NCBI GenBank assembly: GCA_002255985.1
Contig: NKIR01000002.1
Span: 1 to 64,000 of the forward strand
Reading direction: 5' to 3'
Origin: Sphingomonadaceae bacterium PASS1
GTDB lineage: Bacteria; Pseudomonadota; Alphaproteobacteria; Sphingomonadales; Sphingomonadaceae
DNA: 64,000 nt
Made by a program: the position numbers and the translations under genes. A model generated the notes under the pieces. It was not told the origin of the DNA. It made no database searches and was given only the letters and a program-made list of their open reading frames with translations. Below, piece by piece: positions 43,941 to 51,194 of the stretch. The number at the start of each line of letters is the position of its first letter. The first letter of the stretch is position 1.

Positions 43941-44095
43941 ATGCATCCGATAGCGAAGGCCGCCCTTCTAAGCAATCACAGGAAATGGCCGGTTTCTGGC
44001 GTAACATGAAATGCGCCCGATGATTTGATGCGGGTGCTTGTGTTGTGGCGCGCTTGGAGAGAATATCTTTACCTTTTCGGCTTAAATGCTTGAGT

Positions 44096-44647
44096 ATGAT
44101 CAGGACCAACCGATTTCTTCAACGCGCCGCAACAGCATCACTGCTCGCTGCTTTTGCAATTATGGCGGCGCAACCCGCATATGCAGGAACGACACCCGGT
44201 GGCAGTGAGGTAACCATTGTCCGCCCCTTATCCTTCGTCATCGATAACAATCTCGATTTTGGAACAGTCGTTCGGGGAACAACAGCCGGAACGGTCACCA
44301 TCACACCAACGGGAACGCGCACACAAACAGGCGGTGTAACCTTAGCCAATGGCGGCGGACATAAGCCCGCGTCCTTTGCCGGCCAAGGCACATTCACCCA
44401 GCGCGTCGACATCTCACTTGGCGCAAACAGTATTCCTTTGAATGGTCCGGGCACCCCTATGCGGGTCCGCGATTTCATCATCGGTAGTACGCCGACGGCT
44501 GCTCTTACAACTGCGCCACTAAGTTTTCGGATTGCAGCGTTGAACGGTGTTTTTTCATTTCCGATCGGCGCCACGCTTGACGTTGCCGCAAACCAGGCAC
44601 CGGGCGTGTATTCAGGAAACTGGTCGATCACGCTCAATTACTTCTGA
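44096..44647 (+). CDS. DUF4402 domain exported protein
   Basis: A 183-residue secreted protein: signal peptide 1-30 ending in AQPAYA, then a DUF4402 beta-sandwich domain with SFVIDNNLDFGTVVRGTTAGTVTI, the Gly-rich FAGQGTFTQRVDISL, and the terminal VYSGNWSITLNYF. DUF4402 proteins look like pilin-type or surface subunits and usually lie near chaperone/usher genes, but none is present here. Start at 44096 fits the signal peptide; the longer frame upstream is not supported. Function unknown. Confidence 0.83.
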   Translation: MIRTNRFLQRAATASLLAAFAIMAAQPAYAGTTPGGSEVTIVRPLSFVIDNNLDFGTVVRGTTAGTVTITPTGTRTQTGGVTLANGGGHKPASFAGQGTFTQRVDISLGANSIPLNGPGTPMRVRDFIIGSTPTAALTTAPLSFRIAALNGVFSFPIGATLDVAANQAPGVYSGNWSITLNYF

Positions 44648-44887: not shown

Positions 44888-46114
44888 TTAAACCAATATT
44901 TCCTGCGCCGGCCCTTGGCCAAGGAAATTGGCGGGACTGGCGCTGGCACCATATGCGCCGGCGCAGAAGATCGCGACCAAATCACCGACATTTGCGCGCG
45001 GTAAATGGGCTTGGTCCGATAGCTTATCCAGCGGCGTGCAGAGGCAACCGACGATAGACGCAACCTCTTCAGGCTCCGCGCCAAATTTATGTGCAATGGC
45101 CACCGGATAGTTGCGTCGGATGACAGTTCCGAAGTTACCGCTTGCAGCCAGTTGATGGTGCAAACCGCCATCGGTGATGAGAAAAACCTCTCCGTGGCTA
45201 ACTTTGCGGTCCACAATGCGCGTCAGATAGACGCCTGCTTCGCCGACAAGATAGCGGCCAAGCTCAATACAAAAATGGGTATCAGACAGGCTCGACGGCA
45301 GCGCATCAAATGCTTCGCCAAGCGCACCGCCCACGGCAACGATATCAACCGGTCGATCGCCCGGGAAATAAGGAATGCCAAAGCCGCCGCCTAAATTGAC
45401 GTGCGGCGGTGACACGCCAATGGTGTCTGTCAGTTCCGCCACCAATGCGATCGTCTGTGCCTGCATCTGTATGATCGCGTCCACTTTGAGCGACTGCGAG
45501 CCTGCATAGATATGAAAGCCGCAATATTCGGCACCGGAGGCGATAATACGCTTTACCAGCGTTGGCACGCGCTCGGCGTCCACGCCGAATTGCTTCGCCC
45601 CCCCGCCCATTTTCATGCCTGAACCTTTCAGATCAAAGCTGGGATTTATGCGAACGGCAAGGCGCGGTGTCACGCCAAGTTTTGCGCCAATGATGATAGC
45701 GCGTTCGACTTCGCCTTCGGATTCGCAATTCAGCGTTACACCAAGCGCAATAGCGCGTTCCAATTCGCGGTCGCGTTTGCCGGGACCAGCAAAGCTGATC
45801 TTGGTTGCTTGCACCCCAGCGGCCAGTGCCAATTCAAGTTCACCGCCCGATGCAATGTCGAATCCGTCGACAAGGCCGTTCATCAATTCCAGCACGGGCG
45901 GAAAAGGATTGCCCTTCATCGCATAATGTATCGCCAGACGCTGTGGCATTGCAGCCCGCAAATCCGCAACGCGTCTGCGCGCATGATCGGCAGAATATAC
46001 AAACAAAGGGGTATCCCCGGCGCGATCCACCAGTGCAGAGGCGGTCATACCGCCAATGGCAAGTTCGCCGTCGATGGCGACGTAACCATCTGGGATGGGA
46101 CCAGTTTTTTTCAC
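44888..46114 (-). CDS. PLP-dependent decarboxylase, exosortase A system-associated
   Basis: A 408-residue fold-type III enzyme resembling diaminopimelate and ornithine decarboxylases. The PLP lysine is Lys67 in HYAMKGNPFPPVLELM; GGGFGIPYFPGDR and FCIELGRYLVGEAGVYLTRIVD bind phosphate, and AGAYGASASPANFLG is the Tyr region. It matches the family I recall as TIGR03099, found only with exosortase A systems. The gene overlaps the ligase gene by four bases, so the two act together. It probably decarboxylates an amino acid to an amine; the substrate is unknown. Confidence 0.88.
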   Translation of the reverse strand: MKKTGPIPDGYVAIDGELAIGGMTASALVDRAGDTPLFVYSADHARRRVADLRAAMPQRLAIHYAMKGNPFPPVLELMNGLVDGFDIASGGELELALAAGVQATKISFAGPGKRDRELERAIALGVTLNCESEGEVERAIIIGAKLGVTPRLAVRINPSFDLKGSGMKMGGGAKQFGVDAERVPTLVKRIIASGAEYCGFHIYAGSQSLKVDAIIQMQAQTIALVAELTDTIGVSPPHVNLGGGFGIPYFPGDRPVDIVAVGGALGEAFDALPSSLSDTHFCIELGRYLVGEAGVYLTRIVDRKVSHGEVFLITDGGLHHQLAASGNFGTVIRRNYPVAIAHKFGAEPEEVASIVGCLCTPLDKLSDQAHLPRANVGDLVAIFCAGAYGASASPANFLGQGPAQEILV

Positions 46115-47631
46115 GCGGCCAGCCTTAGCGCCAATATATTTCGATCAAGTTTACCGTTTGCATTTTTCGGGAAGGCATCAAGCCAATGGATTTCCGCTGG
46201 CTGCATGAAATTGGGCAACGTCGTTTTCAAATATGACTTCAGCCCGTCATCATCGCCGCTGCCCCGCACAAAAAGCACGATTGCAGCACCCAACCGATCG
46301 TCCTTGCGGCCCAAGGCGCAAGCTTCAGCGACCAGTCCGCTTTCGACAGCCGCTTCCTCAATTTCAGTTGGTGATATGCGGTTTCCGCTCGTTTTAATCA
46401 TCGCATCATCGCGCCCGACAAAATAGAGCAGACCGTCACCGTCGCGGCGGACGGTGTCGCCCGACCAAACCGCTATACCACCATATTTCGAAAACTCTGG
46501 AGCGGGTTTGAAACGTTCGGCGGTACGTGCTGCGTCCTGCCAATAACCCTGCGCAACAAGTCGCCCGGCATGGACAAGTTCGCCCGGTTCGTCAGGCCCG
46601 GTTTCGCTACCGTTCGGGGCAACGACCATGACCTCGGCAAAGGGAATATTGCGCCCCATGCTCGTCGGGTTGCCGTCAATCAAAGCGGGATCGAGATAGG
46701 TTGAACGAAAGGCCTCCGTCAGACCGTACATCGCATAGATATCGGTGTTCTTACCAAAAATGCTGCGCAGCATTTTCACAAGGCTTGGGGTAAATGCACC
46801 GCCCGAATTTGTCAGTCGCCGCATGTTCTGTGTAGCTTCAGGCGGCCATAAGTGTTCAGTCAGTTGCACCCACAATGGCGGAACTGCGGCAAGCGTGGTG
46901 ATTTTATGCTGCACGCAGGATTTAATGACATCGCGCGGCGTGAGATAATCCAGCGGTACGACACAGCCCCCTGCCCGCCATGTCGATAGCAATTGGTTCT
47001 GGCCATAATCAAAGCTGAGCGGCAGCACCGCGAGCACTTTATCATCCGGAGAGAGTTTGAGATATTCCGCGACACTGACAGCGCCCAAAACGAGGTTCGC
47101 GTGGGAGAGCATGACACCCTTTGGCCGCCCCGTAGAGCCGCTGGTATACAGGATTGCGGCGAGCGTGTCGGCGTCGGTTGTTACAGGGAGTGGAGGAAGT
47201 GACGGGGCGGAAGAATCGTCCAAAAACTCCAACACGGTCTTTTCATCGATAATGCTAAAACCCAATTCGTTCCGGGGAGGATTTAGGGTTCCCGCCCGGC
47301 CAGCATTGGTAATCAAAAACCGCGCCCCGCTGTCTGCCATGATGTAGGCCAGCTGAGGGGCTTTCAGCAACTGATTGACGGGCACATGCACGAGGCCCGC
47401 ACGCACGGCGGCCAAAGGCATCAGGCACGCGATTTCGCCTTTGCCCAACCATGTCGCCACCCGATCACCCGAATGCAGGTCGGTTGCCGCAAGCCATGCA
47501 GCCAGACGACCGATACGGAGATTTAACTCCTGATAATTATATGTTCGATCACGAATCGCCAACGCGCTCGCCATTGGTTGCCCAAACAGGGGCAAATGAT
47601 CGAGCGGGAACAGCGGCAAATCGTGCGTCAT
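46111..47631 (-). CDS. AMP-forming acyl-CoA/ACP ligase, exosortase A system-associated
   Basis: A 506-residue ANL-superfamily ligase. The AMP loop is AAILYTSGSTGRPKGVMLS (about 164-182), then YAMYGLTEAFRSTY, LYFVGRDDAMIKTSGNRISPTEIEE, and NGKLDRN with the C-terminal catalytic Lys. It matches the exosortase A-associated ligase family (TIGR03098 by recall). A carrier protein gene lies in the divergent operon, so the acid it activates is probably loaded onto that ACP. It starts 29 bases from the FemAB-like gene, so both promoters must overlap coding sequence. Confidence 0.88.
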   Translation of the reverse strand: MTHDLPLFPLDHLPLFGQPMASALAIRDRTYNYQELNLRIGRLAAWLAATDLHSGDRVATWLGKGEIACLMPLAAVRAGLVHVPVNQLLKAPQLAYIMADSGARFLITNAGRAGTLNPPRNELGFSIIDEKTVLEFLDDSSAPSLPPLPVTTDADTLAAILYTSGSTGRPKGVMLSHANLVLGAVSVAEYLKLSPDDKVLAVLPLSFDYGQNQLLSTWRAGGCVVPLDYLTPRDVIKSCVQHKITTLAAVPPLWVQLTEHLWPPEATQNMRRLTNSGGAFTPSLVKMLRSIFGKNTDIYAMYGLTEAFRSTYLDPALIDGNPTSMGRNIPFAEVMVVAPNGSETGPDEPGELVHAGRLVAQGYWQDAARTAERFKPAPEFSKYGGIAVWSGDTVRRDGDGLLYFVGRDDAMIKTSGNRISPTEIEEAAVESGLVAEACALGRKDDRLGAAIVLFVRGSGDDDGLKSYLKTTLPNFMQPAEIHWLDAFPKNANGKLDRNILALRLAA

Positions 47632-47660
47632 ATGTGCAATATCGCTTGGAGTGAAAGTTC

Positions 47661-48707
47661 ATGTCAGAGGTCAGCTATTTGCCCGCAAAAGGTGAATATC
47701 ACGATAATTTTCTGACGGCCCAGCTGGCAGCCGGAGGACGGCTTGACCGCAAATTTCAAAAGAGCCTGTTCGACCGGTTTGATTGGCTTAATCAGCTCCA
47801 TCGTCTCGCGCTGCCCGACAAACCTCCATTATTGTTGCGCGCCCAACAGGGCGAGGCGGACGCGTGGATGCCGCTGATGCGTCAAGGTAAGGGACATTTT
47901 GTAGCGCTTGCCAACTGGTACAATTTCAGATGGCAACCGATTTTTGGTGGCGCCTATGACGCAGTGACCCGCATGGCACTGCTCCGTCAGTTTGCGCATA
48001 GCACGAAGGATCGCGCGCGCAGACTGACATTGGCACCCGTTCCCGACGAAGATGGATCAGCAAGCCAGATTGCCGCAGCCTTTGAATCGAGTGGCTGGGT
48101 CGTAGAAATGTCCCCCTGCGATGAAAATCACTATCTGCGCGTGAATGGCCGGACGTTTGAAGAATATTGGACAGGACGCCCCGGTCAGCTGAAAAACATC
48201 GTCAAGCGCAAGGGCACAAAAGGCGTTGTTTCAATCCGCATTGAACAGGTCTTTGATGAAACCGCTTGGCGCGATTATGAACGCGTCTATGCCCGCAGCT
48301 GGAAGCCATCTGAAGACAGTCCAGCGTTTCTGATGCAGATCGCCCGGCAAGAGGGTGCGGCAGGCAATTTGCGGCTTGGATTGGCATATATCGATGGCCA
48401 GCCTGTCGCTGCGCAGTTCTGGACGGTTGAAAACCAAATAGCGCTTATTCACAAATTGGCGCATGACGACCAGCACTTGGCGTCATCGCCTGGTACGTTA
48501 TTATCGGCGGCGTTGTTTCAGCATGTCATTGATGACGATAAAGTTACTGAAATTGATTTTGGTACTGGCAGCGACGGCTACAAACGCGAATGGATGGAAG
48601 ATATGCGTCCCCGGTTTCGAATTGATCTGCTGTGGCCAAACCATATCGCAAATTGGCCCGTGATTGCGCGCCACCACTTACGGAAAATGCGCGGCCAAGC
48701 CGCTTAA
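47661..48707 (+). CDS. FemAB-like GNAT-fold protein, PEP-CTERM/exosortase-associated
   Basis: A 348-residue protein with a double GNAT fold as in FemX/FemAB: LQRKFQKSLF-like RLDRKFQKSLFDRFDW at the N-terminus, PGQLKNIVKRKGTKGVVSIRI around 175-195, RVYARSWKPSEDSPAF, and the C-terminal YKREWMEDMRPRFRIDLL. FemAB proteins transfer amino acids from tRNA to lipid-linked peptides; the exosortase-type relatives (TIGR03019 by recall) have unproven substrates. It begins the plus-strand arm of the cassette, with GGAG nine bases before its ATG. The ACP follows after 14 bases. Confidence 0.85.
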   Translation: MSEVSYLPAKGEYHDNFLTAQLAAGGRLDRKFQKSLFDRFDWLNQLHRLALPDKPPLLLRAQQGEADAWMPLMRQGKGHFVALANWYNFRWQPIFGGAYDAVTRMALLRQFAHSTKDRARRLTLAPVPDEDGSASQIAAAFESSGWVVEMSPCDENHYLRVNGRTFEEYWTGRPGQLKNIVKRKGTKGVVSIRIEQVFDETAWRDYERVYARSWKPSEDSPAFLMQIARQEGAAGNLRLGLAYIDGQPVAAQFWTVENQIALIHKLAHDDQHLASSPGTLLSAALFQHVIDDDKVTEIDFGTGSDGYKREWMEDMRPRFRIDLLWPNHIANWPVIARHHLRKMRGQAA

Positions 48708-48721
48708 CCCGAAAGAGAACA

Positions 48722-48982
48722 ATGTCACAGGACATAGAAACCATAATCCGCACGCTTCTATCAGATGTGCTTGGACTGTCATCGGAACAGGTCTCGGCTT
48801 TGCACAATGACAGCGCATTATTCGGCGCGATCCCCGAACTCGACTCCATGGCAGTCGCTGGTCTGCTGACCGAACTTGAGGATAGGCTGGATATCACCAT
48901 CGACGACGATGAAGTCGATGGAGAACTGTTCACGACATTTGGCAGTTTGGTGGGCTTTGCCGAAACGAAAGGCGCTGCGTGA
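48722..48982 (+). CDS. Acyl carrier protein, exosortase A system-associated
   Basis: An 86-residue carrier protein. The four-helix ACP pattern is clear, with the phosphopantetheine serine at Ser42 in IPELDSMAVAGLLTELEDRL, acidic helix II. Longer and different from the fatty-acid AcpP in this same window (58743). It is encoded next to a FemAB-like protein and two hydrolases; its stop overlaps the hydrolase GTG start by four bases. It is the most likely partner of the divergent ligase. Confidence 0.88.
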   Translation: MSQDIETIIRTLLSDVLGLSSEQVSALHNDSALFGAIPELDSMAVAGLLTELEDRLDITIDDDEVDGELFTTFGSLVGFAETKGAA

Positions 48983-49671
48983 GGCCTCAGCCGGTCCATC
49001 TGCATTACAGCACGGCCACGCAAAGCGAATATGGCCTTCGCTTTGGGCCAGCTGATGCCGACCGTATAATTTTAATCGTTCCGCCCCTGTTTGACGAAAT
49101 GAACCGTACACGGCGCATGGTGGCTGAGGCGATGCGCGGATTGGCAAAACGCGATGTGGCATCACTGCTGCCTGACTTACCCGGATGCAATGAGAGCACC
49201 GCAGCGCTTTCAAGCCAGTCGATAGAAAGCTGGCGGCGTGCCGTGTCTGATGTCGCCACGCAATTGGGGGCAACGCATGTGGTTTCAATCCGCGGCGGGG
49301 GCTTGCTTGACGATGCTGCGGGCCTTCCCATGTGGCGATTGGCACCGGTGAAGGGTGCATCGCTTTTAAAAACGCTTCTGCGCGCGCGGATTGCGGCGGA
49401 TAAAGAAGCCGGTATCGTGACAACTGCAGAGCAGCTCATCATCGAGGGGCAGCATGATGGGCTAGATCTTGCTGGACATGCGATTGGTCCAGCGATGCTT
49501 ATGGATCTCGAAAAGGCACATCCTGTCGCATCCGACGAAATAACAGAAGCAACCCTCACCGACGTGGCCGGGACAGCGCTGTGGCTGCGGTCAGAGCCTG
49601 GTGAAAGTCCGGAAATGTCCGCTGCGCTGGCTGGGTACATTGACCGATGGAGCGCATCATGCGGACGATAG
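48979..49671 (+). CDS. Alpha/beta hydrolase 2, exosortase A system-associated
   Basis: A 230-residue alpha/beta-hydrolase-fold protein of the exosortase-associated hydrolase 2 type (TIGR03101 by recall). PPLFDEMNRTRRM (35-47) and LLPDLPGCNES (63-73) are typical. At the nucleophile elbow one reads S-I-Arg105-G-G-G rather than G-x-Ser-x-G, so the usual catalytic serine is absent. It begins at GTG and overlaps the ACP gene (GTGA). It may be a scaffold or use another mechanism. Its end overlaps hydrolase 1 by 13 bases. Confidence 0.83.
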   Translation: MRPQPVHLHYSTATQSEYGLRFGPADADRIILIVPPLFDEMNRTRRMVAEAMRGLAKRDVASLLPDLPGCNESTAALSSQSIESWRRAVSDVATQLGATHVVSIRGGGLLDDAAGLPMWRLAPVKGASLLKTLLRARIAADKEAGIVTTAEQLIIEGQHDGLDLAGHAIGPAMLMDLEKAHPVASDEITEATLTDVAGTALWLRSEPGESPEMSAALAGYIDRWSASCGR

Positions 49672-50483
49672 TCAACTTTCCGTGCGGCACCGATAGCCTT
49701 AGCGGCGCGTTTGACGCAGCCGACGGCTCGACTGGTCTGCTCATCCTAAGCGGCGGGAATGAAATCCGCAGCGGGGCGTATGCAGGGCAAGCCGCCATGG
49801 CGCAGCATTTTCAGACGCTTGGTTACCCCGTTTTCCGCTTTGACCGGCGCGGTATCGGTGACAGCGAAGGGCAAAACAGAGGCTTCGAGCATAGCGCGGA
49901 CGACATTGCTGCGGCTTTAAAAGCCTTTCGTGCGATGGCGCCTCAATTGCGTAACATTATCGGATTTGGCAACTGCGACGCCGCGACCGCTCTAACGATC
50001 TTCCCAGATCACGATGCGTTCAGTACGCTGATTTTGGTCAATCCATGGACTATCGATGCAGCACCGGAAGCGGACGAAACAGCATCCCCCAATGCAGCCG
50101 CCATTCGCGGGCGTTATTGGGCAAGGTTGAAAAATCCGCGCAGCATCATGGATCTTTTGACCGGCAAAATTGACATCAAAAAACTTGCTGCGGGTCTGGC
50201 CAAAGCATCGGTGCGCGAACCGGTTTCCGATTTAGCGACACGCATCGCTGAAGGCTTTCTGGACCGCGACGAACCCGTTGCACTGCTGCTTGCGGAACGC
50301 GATACGACTGCGCTCGCTTTTCTCGCGGCGTGGCGATCCCGGACGTTTCAGGCCGCGCGGGCCAAAGACAACATATCGTTGTCGACCTGTGACAGCGCGT
50401 CACACAGTTTCGCCGATCCTGCCGCGCGCGCATGGCTATACGGACAAGTCGAGGAAATCCTCAGACGGCAGAGCGGATTATAA
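49659..50483 (+). CDS. Alpha/beta hydrolase 1, exosortase A system-associated
   Basis: A 274-residue alpha/beta-hydrolase of the exosortase-associated hydrolase 1 type (TIGR03100 by recall). ILSGGNEIRSGAYAGQAAMA and FRFDRRGIGDSEG are typical, and the nucleophile elbow reads G-F-G-N-Cys106-D-A-A, a cysteine in the nucleophile position. The ATG at 49659 follows GGAG six to seven bases upstream; another ATG is at 49647. Last gene of the plus arm. With hydrolase 2, ACP, ligase and decarboxylase it could release or edit a carrier-bound intermediate. Confidence 0.85.
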   Translation: MRTIVNFPCGTDSLSGAFDAADGSTGLLILSGGNEIRSGAYAGQAAMAQHFQTLGYPVFRFDRRGIGDSEGQNRGFEHSADDIAAALKAFRAMAPQLRNIIGFGNCDAATALTIFPDHDAFSTLILVNPWTIDAAPEADETASPNAAAIRGRYWARLKNPRSIMDLLTGKIDIKKLAAGLAKASVREPVSDLATRIAEGFLDRDEPVALLLAERDTTALAFLAAWRSRTFQAARAKDNISLSTCDSASHSFADPAARAWLYGQVEEILRRQSGL

Positions 50484-50492
50484 AAAACCGCC

Positions 50493-51194
50493 TCATGCGG
50501 CGGCGGAAAGATCCTGAAGCCGCGCTCGGTCTTGAATGGCCACCGTCCGGCGGTCTGGCAAGTTAATGACGCCGTCGGCTTTCAACAGCGATAATTGCCG
50601 GCTGACCGTTTCAATGGTTAAGCCAAGAATATCGCCCATCTGTTGGCGATTGAGGGGCAATTCAAACCTGTCCAAGGCGCTTTTGCCCGCCGAACAACCA
50701 GTCTCACCAAGTCGCGCAGACATTTCCAACAGCAAGGTCGCAATGCGTTCCGTTGCGGTCTTCTTCCCCAACAGCAGCATCCATTCATGGGCGCGATCAA
50801 GTTCAGTCAACGTCCGCCGCAGCAGCTTATGCTCCAGTTCCGGATGCTGCCGCGCGAAGCTGTCAAAGGTTGAGCGGGAAAATATGCATAATTCTGCATC
50901 TGTGAGCGCAGTGACGCTGTATGGGCTTTGCTGACCAAAGGGACGGCCGATAAAATCAGAGGCGAAGACAAGGCCGACAATCTGTTCGCGTCCATCCGAA
51001 ATGCTCATGGACACTTTCAGGACGCCTTCGATGACGTTGGCGACGACAACCGAATCATCGCCTTCCCAAACAACCGTCTGTCCCTTTGTCACGCGCTGCT
51101 TGCGGCCAAGCTGCCCCAACGCATCGAGTTCATCGGGTTCGAGGCCGGCGCAAATTGCACGGTTACGCACAACGCATTGGGAGCAGTCCTTCAT
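50493..51194 (-). CDS. FNR-type oxygen-responsive transcription factor
   Basis: A 233-residue Crp/Fnr-family regulator with the FNR cysteine set: Cys4, Cys7 and Cys15 at the N-terminus (CSQC, AIC) plus Cys103 in AELCIF, which fits a [4Fe-4S] oxygen sensor. Cyclic-nucleotide-binding-like barrel (about 20-140) and a winged-helix domain with LNRQQMGDILGLTIETVSRQLSLLK (about 178-202) that should read FNR boxes. Alphaproteobacterial FnrL is the closest match. It is convergent with the exosortase-type hydrolase 1 gene, ten bases apart. Confidence 0.88.
   Translation of the reverse strand: MKDCSQCVVRNRAICAGLEPDELDALGQLGRKQRVTKGQTVVWEGDDSVVVANVIEGVLKVSMSISDGREQIVGLVFASDFIGRPFGQQSPYSVTALTDAELCIFSRSTFDSFARQHPELEHKLLRRTLTELDRAHEWMLLLGKKTATERIATLLLEMSARLGETGCSAGKSALDRFELPLNRQQMGDILGLTIETVSRQLSLLKADGVINLPDRRTVAIQDRARLQDLSAAA

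Follow-up and report, generated by a model that had tools for sequence, protein, structure and literature searches.

A predicted carrier-bound decarboxylation module in an exosortase A-associated gene cassette of a sphingomonad

What does a gene cassette of families labelled merely 'exosortase A system-associated' do, and why does it stand where no exosortase is in view? This question is raised by six genes at positions 44888-50483 of a 64,000-nt stretch of Sphingomonadaceae bacterium PASS1 DNA (positions 1 to 64,000 of NKIR01000002.1; hereafter, the window), which encode a pyridoxal phosphate (PLP) decarboxylase, an adenylating ligase, a FemAB-like protein, an acyl carrier protein (ACP) and two proteins named hydrolases 1 and 2. 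Judging from gene content, homology, conserved residues, folds and co-occurrence, we consider it likely that the ligase, ACP and PLP enzyme (together the core, or trio) form a carrier-bound decarboxylation module. This reading offers testable chemistry for these families, and it tells a self-standing core apart from an arm bound to exosortase A (XrtA). Compared genomes and fetched loci are given G and L labels, G000 being the genome of the window.

The best PDB matches of the decarboxylase were to BtrK (7ru7/2j66, 236 bits), with the best diaminopimelate decarboxylase (DapDC) scoring 88 bits lower (148 bits), which places the enzyme closer to BtrK than to decarboxylases of free substrates. The BtrK motif KMGGxxxxFG appears as M(G/A/S)GxxxxFG in the cassette enzymes and their distant relatives, versus STGxxxxKFG in seven DapDCs from the fetched genomes. 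In a FastTree phylogeny of 89 sequences, each cut to its last 430 residues (a cut that left row L082 badly trimmed), the seven DapDCs separated from the remaining sequences, among them BtrK, at a support of 0.79. According to a passage of PMC7857480, BtrK converts Glu-S-BtrI into γ-aminobutyryl (GABA)-S-BtrI. Since its closest solved relative acts on an ACP-bound substrate, the cassette decarboxylase most likely strips the alpha-carboxyl from an ACP-bound acidic amino acid; acid and amine would then most likely be one molecule, and a separate amine is unneeded.

For ligase residues 190-340, PDB matches at E < 1e-5 were limited to VinN (3wv4, 3wvn) and epsilon-poly-lysine synthase. Ligase Asp208 and Arg309 align with VinN residues that we take to be Asp230 and Arg331 (the numbers, including that of Lys330 below, are assumed, while the positions come from the alignment), and VinN Arg331 presumably binds the second carboxylate. 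Both positions are invariant in 44/44 aligned ligases (33 near ones, including that of the window, and 11 distant ones), as well as in 28/28 ligases of loci from genomes lacking XrtA; Lys330 of VinN has no counterpart in the cassette ligase. A review (PMC11284099) states, in the parts that concern these enzymes, that VinN loads 3-methylaspartate onto the ACP VinL, that decarboxylation by VinO needs prior thioester formation, and that the amino group of the substrate is bound by an Asp which enzymes of this kind share. As the cassette ligase retains this Asp, the loaded acid is probably an amino acid, and we infer that an acidic amino acid would be loaded onto the ACP via its side-chain carboxyl. 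The phosphopantetheine site of the ACP is Ser42 in ELDSM, a Ser kept in 23/23 ACPs recovered from XrtA-less loci. With a BtrK-like decarboxylase and a VinN-like ligase side by side, decarboxylation most likely takes place on the ACP. The initial annotation had pictured an amine made separately by decarboxylation, and this part of it gives way to a single carrier-bound molecule.

In the first step of the proposed mechanism, an acidic amino acid (L-aspartate being the most likely one) would be adenylated by the ligase at its side-chain carboxyl and loaded onto the ACP. The PLP enzyme would take the alpha-carboxyl off the bound residue to leave an omega-aminoacyl-ACP, most likely beta-alanyl-ACP (Glu as substrate would give GABA-ACP instead). 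Where XrtA is present, the FemX-fold transferase might place the aminoacyl group on a glycan or lipid belonging to the exopolysaccharide (EPS)/exosortase machinery, and the Cys-type hydrolase 1 would release or re-route this group. The product of the module in sphingomonads plausibly includes free beta-alanine.

The other three proteins were examined through folds and conserved residues. An AlphaFold model of the FemAB-like protein, built from a 10-row alignment (10 of 21 collected sequences), had a predicted local distance difference test score (pLDDT) of 83.8, and its top Foldseek matches were alanyl-phosphatidylglycerol synthase (A-PGS, 4v34), FemX (4ii9/7z6a) and MprF, with E of about 1e-12 and template modelling (TM) scores of 0.53-0.61; the TM of about 0.60 to FemX agrees with a tandem-GNAT FemX fold. 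A-PGS, FemX and MprF move aminoacyl groups onto lipids or peptidoglycan precursors. The FemAB-like protein is thus a candidate mover of the aminoacyl group from the ACP to a glycan or lipid, with gene linkage suggesting the ACP, and not the aminoacyl-tRNA of FemX/FemAB enzymes, as its donor. PDB sequence searches returned no match for this protein or for hydrolase 1. The latter has a Cys-Asp-His set (C110, D219, H253) that is invariant in 31/31 aligned sequences, and is a candidate thioesterase or acyltransferase with a Cys nucleophile. Hydrolase 2 has Arg105 at the nucleophile elbow, with Arg in 25/25 aligned sequences; its model (pLDDT 94.4, 25 sequences: 24 of 28 collected plus that of L115) puts Arg105 at the strand-helix turn, and its fold matches are alpha/beta-hydrolases. 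Because Arg105 takes the place of the nucleophile, hydrolase 2 is probably not a hydrolase but a pseudo-hydrolase partner, whose family name is probably misleading; by score it is not a member of TIGR03101, and we treat it as a divergent relative. The earlier idea of two hydrolases for release or editing is therefore doubtful. At the same time, the broader idea of a thioester set on an ACP with a FemAB-type transferase, tied to XrtA or EPS, is supported by families, fold and linkage.

The six genes form two divergent arms separated by 29 bp (Table 1), with overlaps of 4 bases at 46111-46114 and 48979-48982 and of 25 bases between the two hydrolase genes. The ACP start given by the open reading frame (ORF) lister, 48632, is probably too early, as AAAGAGAA stands before the ATG at 48722. 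All six genes occur together again in 13/15 loci from a genome-contig scan (L006-L017, L019), the remaining two being a short contig (L018) and a weak match (L020); this is more than chance would give, and the ORF positions confirm the divergent, overlapping arrangement first described. The accompanying assignment of all six to exosortase A-associated families held in part: the decarboxylase, ligase and hydrolase 1 pass curated NCBIfam cut-offs (TIGR03099, TIGR03098, TIGR03100), and hydrolase 2 falls far below its own. The ACP exceeds a curated cut-off by PF00550 only, and the FemAB-like protein is recognised by PF13480 only, with no match in NCBIfam. The gene that follows hydrolase 1, convergent to it, encodes an FnrL/FixK-like regulator (window 50493-51194; 246 bits, cut-off 300).

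Table 1 Genes of the cassette and a conserved protein found next to the core in three EPS clusters
Feature	Position	Strand	Family match
PLP-dependent fold-III decarboxylase, BtrK-like	44888-46114	-	TIGR03099, 573 bits (cut-off 478)
ANL adenylating ligase, VinN-like	46111-47631	-	TIGR03098, 623 bits (cut-off 592)
FemX/aminoacyl-lipid-synthase-like GNAT transferase (FemAB-like)	47661-48707	+	PF13480
Acyl carrier protein, 86 aa	48722-48982	+	PF00550
Hydrolase-2-like alpha/beta-hydrolase fold	48979-49671	+	TIGR03101, 48.9 bits (cut-off 202.75)
Hydrolase 1, alpha/beta hydrolase	49647-50483	+	TIGR03100, 195 bits (cut-off 168)
Conserved 289-295 aa protein, candidate aminoacyl transferase	L138:9463-10350, L139:7515-8384, L067:6470-7357

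The exosortase itself is not missing from the genome (3.07 Mb, 30 contigs). The window holds no exosortase or PEP-CTERM match, and all matches of the genome searches fall on contig C4, where XrtA was found at G000:C4:90629-91402 (330 bits, cut-off 208). It lies in a nine-gene run encoding a chain-length determinant, a tyrosine kinase, a 598-aa protein, an ATPase, a deacetylase, FemAB (TIGR03019), a glycosyltransferase, XrtA and an amidotransferase. Seven of the nine proteins exceed an XrtA-family cut-off, the tyrosine kinase staying below (212 bits against 231) and the 598-aa protein having no NCBIfam match; the TIGR03019 gene of this run is separate from the FemAB-like gene of the cassette. 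A single PEP-CTERM candidate scores high enough to count (18.5 bits at C4:519673-519738, against a cut-off of 16, by a short model that also passes in 2/14 control genomes), with VPAPPMVILFGAAAAGLMARRR near its end. The protein in question (L005, G000:C4:519638-520669) is Ser/Thr/Gly-rich, has VPAPP instead of VPEP and is perhaps an exosortase substrate here. The initial annotation had reported no exosortase or PEP-CTERM protein in view, which is true of the window and not of the genome; it had also proposed a genome search for xrtA, PEP-CTERM proteins and the EPS locus, with absence of an exosortase from this genome and from all others sharing the gene order as grounds to abandon the association, and this search recovered XrtA, the nine-gene XrtA/EPS run and one PEP-CTERM candidate.

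In other sphingomonads the cassette adjoins EPS genes (L011, L012, L014-L017), or has XrtA itself within the fetched stretch (L051, L053-L060, and L115 of G307, from the genus of the window genome). Since the XrtA/EPS locus lies here on another contig, the cassette in the window is relocated. The idea of a stand-in for a lost exosortase was ruled out by the presence of XrtA in the genome. In four other loci (L006-L008, L019) the cassette has the neighbours that it has in the window: genes for a DUF4402 protein and an ABC transporter, and nadB. The DUF4402 protein (PF14352) near the relocated cassette is encoded at window 44045-44647; the corresponding position holds two such genes in each of L006, L007 and L019.

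We then considered how far the cassette follows XrtA across genomes. Of the 249 genomes in a phylum sample, 20 had a decarboxylase scoring over the cut-off, 21 had XrtA and 18 had both; the corresponding figures for an order sample of 120 genomes around G240 were 24, 34 and 21. A family sample of 119 sphingomonads, in which the decarboxylase and ACP were sought beside the ligase, had XrtA over cut-off in 78, ligase in 102, hydrolase 1 in 77, FemAB in 79 and deacetylase in 80. The ligase count includes matches of at least 454 bits and becomes 92 if the curated cut-off is applied; next below come two halves of a frameshifted ligase gene in G291, followed by matches under 290 bits. Hydrolase 1 tracks XrtA in this sample (76/78 XrtA genomes vs 1/41 others), and the ligase occurs in 76/78 XrtA genomes and in 26/41 XrtA-less ones. 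XrtA is therefore absent from 26/102 ligase genomes, or 18/92 by the curated cut-off. Seventeen of these 26 have another, sub-cut-off exosortase match and nine have none; deacetylase was found in 3, FemAB in 2 and hydrolase 1 in 1 (G309), and 23/26 have no EPS deacetylase match. G309 was dropped as a truly XrtA-less case, because there the contig breaks off next to the cassette (L092), probably at an assembly gap. The co-occurrence profiling proposed at the outset thus bears out a strong link to XrtA, but the ligase outlives XrtA.

All 26 XrtA-less ligase loci (the 25 loci L090-L114, plus L068), a natural deletion series, were examined. The decarboxylase stands beside the ligase in 25 of them, L092 being cut by the contig end; searches for an ACP succeeded in 22. 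The stretch is free of other cassette or EPS genes in 18/26, comprising 14 bare trios and 4 loci with ligase and decarboxylase only; among L090-L114, 20/25 are free of EPS genes from the XrtA set, the set covered by this search. Including L116-L118, catalytic residues are intact in 27/27 decarboxylases and 28/28 ligases. Five loci (L091, L093, L097, L107, L114) share the order trxB-ACP-ligase-decarboxylase-truA-def, with trxB, truA and def named by eye. Complete loci, for example L012, L014-L017 and L056-L059, have trxB flanking hydrolase 1, and truA comes next after the amidotransferase in the XrtA locus of the window genome; no single fetched stretch has both flanks around a full locus. Remnants of an EPS locus are partial in L099 and L100, and less remains in L104 and L068. 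Three order-sample genomes of one genus (G358, G400, G441; 1.8-2.0 Mb; L116-L118) keep ligase and decarboxylase, with an ACP in 2/3, and have no XrtA match.

EPS clusters that contain the trio were also found in Sinorhizobium meliloti (pSymB), Aureimonas and G107, and all three clusters include glycosyltransferases and a polysaccharide deacetylase; no exosortase is annotated in the fetched stretches of the first two, and the G107 genome has no match. A protein of 289-295 aa (57-60% identical), at most weakly GNAT-like, is encoded immediately upstream of the ligase in these three clusters. More distant decarboxylase loci have a ligase match in 11/15 cases, and a phosphopantetheine-binding protein adjoins the ligase or decarboxylase genes in 3/3 of the distant loci where a candidate was tested. 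As an intact trio persists in XrtA-less loci and EPS clusters, the core seems able to exist apart from the exosortase and to be retained for a product of its own.

A hint at that product may lie in the distribution of PanD (TIGR00223), searched for within the family sample. PanD occurs in 5/119 sphingomonads (G251, G270, G271, G286, G332), all without the ligase, which amounts to 0/102 ligase genomes vs 5/17 ligase-less ones (Fisher p = 3.4e-5). Counted by genus, PanD is found in 4/13 genera with a ligase-less genome (one of them being mixed) as against 0/78 others (p = 2.7e-4). PYD3 is taken here as the beta-alanine synthase of the uracil route. The Sphingomonadales rows of Table A2 in PMC7142369 list PanD in 0/19, pantothenate synthetase in 18/19 and PYD3 in 2/19. 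It is quite possible, and we propose it tentatively, that the beta-alanine which sphingomonads need for coenzyme A (CoA) is made on the ACP, where L-Asp would be loaded by its beta-carboxyl, decarboxylated and released, replacing PanD. Zymomonas (G267, G343) is the only genus among the ligase-less genomes also lacking PanD that we take to be auxotrophic, and G267 is Z. mobilis ATCC 10988 (a plasmid stretch is 100% identical). A passage of PMC10370309, citing Gliessman 2017 on strain ZM4, attributes pantothenate auxotrophy of Z. mobilis and Methylobacterium to the absence of PanD or a beta-alanine enzyme. If true, the ACP route would explain both the persistence of the core after loss of the exosortase locus and the pantothenate requirement of Zymomonas, which has neither PanD nor ligase. 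The trio is a candidate for a gap, the beta-alanine source of sphingomonads; if the route exists, an EPS-decoration module would have become the family's vitamin B5 precursor route, and the annotation of its genes should change.

An alternative to which we give a little less than an even chance is that the module serves EPS decoration only, placing omega-aminoacyl groups on an EPS amino sugar everywhere, with bare trios serving glycan loci elsewhere in the genome and the distribution of PanD being a phylogenetic accident. In its favour, the trio sits within EPS/glycan clusters in three cases (S. meliloti, Aureimonas, G107) and near EPS genes in many sphingomonads. It fits poorly with the XrtA-less loci devoid of XrtA-set EPS genes and the genomes without a deacetylase match, and chance is an unlikely cause of the lack of PanD from all 102 genomes with the ligase, whether one counts genomes or genera, in a comparison that carries no correction for phylogeny.

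Several findings weigh against carrier-bound decarboxylation or its extension to beta-alanine. VinN Lys330 is Phe in the cassette ligase, so its substrate could be Asp, Glu or another acid, and the preference of the ligase for ACP over CoA is itself an inference. BLAST found no ACP in 5/28 XrtA-less loci, four of the 15 distant decarboxylase loci (L071, L074, L075, L085) have no ligase match, and the split between DapDCs and the BtrK side has moderate support. The PanD statistic treats related species as independent and comes from a single test chosen after the bare trios had been seen; moreover, 12/17 ligase-less genomes are also without PanD. Bare-trio loci have no cassette transferase or thioesterase adjoining, leaving beta-alanine release without an assigned enzyme. 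Finally, S. meliloti 1021 is listed with PYD3 in Table A2 of PMC7142369, so that the trio need not be its beta-alanine source.

Dedication of the core to the exosortase, in which it would build an amine-bearing acceptor or anchor for the joining of PEP-CTERM proteins by exosortase A, as FemAB enzymes build the amine acceptor of Gram-positive sortases, appears unlikely. The strong co-occurrence with XrtA in the phylum and order samples, the distribution of hydrolase 1 and the FemX fold agree with it, but the decarboxylase over cut-off is missing in 13/34 (order) and 3/21 (phylum) XrtA genomes, and of the 26 XrtA-less ligase genomes nine have no exosortase match at all (G309 probably reflecting an assembly gap). 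Hydrolase 1 does track XrtA, but exclusive service of the core to this system is not upheld. Still less probable is a free amino acid decarboxylase acting next to a separate acid activation, the free amine being made in the manner of lysine or ornithine decarboxylases and acylated later: the enzyme shares the fold-III superfamily with such decarboxylases and matches TIGR01048 lysA at 237 bits, under the cut-off of 298, but BtrK is closer than any free-substrate decarboxylase in the PDB, the DapDC motif is replaced, and the amino-binding Asp of the ligase implies that the loaded acid is probably an amino acid. An ordinary fatty-acid or siderophore pathway can be set aside almost entirely, for although the ligase and ACP families are generic and the ACP weakly matches petrobactin AsbD (29.6 bits, cut-off 100), Asp208 is an amino-acid signature and the recurrent neighbours are EPS/XrtA or unrelated genes (most of them not annotated by family search).

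In the open-access literature, to which our search extended, we found no earlier proposal linking the exosortase A cassette to ACP-bound decarboxylation or beta-alanine; the one paper that brings together beta-alanine and exosortase is, judging by its title, a Geobacter transcriptome study. The main text of Haft 2006 (PMC1569441) mentions no decarboxylase, ligase, hydrolase or FemAB and gives no mechanism. The portions consulted of a Novosphingobium aromaticivorans spaceflight fitness paper (PMC10725011) do not mention exosortase, PEP-CTERM, pantothenate, decarboxylase or beta-alanine; they do report an ACP gene with a fitness effect, saro_1339. Sphingomonas is not named in the corresponding portions of a paper on auxotrophy of leaf strains (PMC9666465).

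Among known systems, the label carried by TIGR03098/03099/03100/03101 implies dedication to the exosortase, whereas the ligase outlives XrtA and hydrolase 1 does not. PanD would make the same product, beta-alanine from L-aspartate, but is a pyruvoyl enzyme acting on free aspartate, and it never occurs together with the ligase in the family sample. The butirosin system BtrI/BtrJ/BtrK provides the closest solved homologue of the cassette decarboxylase, BtrK, which acts on Glu-S-ACP; BtrJ is an ATP-grasp ligase and the butirosin acceptor an aminoglycoside, whereas the cassette ligase is of the ANL type. The vicenistatin system VinN/VinL/VinO has in common with the cassette a stand-alone ANL ligase, a stand-alone ACP, a PLP decarboxylase and the Asp/Arg positions, and its decarboxylation follows thioester formation, as proposed here; FlvN is the counterpart for Asp in fluvirucin. 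The vicenistatin system primes a polyketide synthase by means of a second ligase, VinM, and the transferase VinK, whereas the cassette has a FemX-fold transferase and EPS/XrtA genes.

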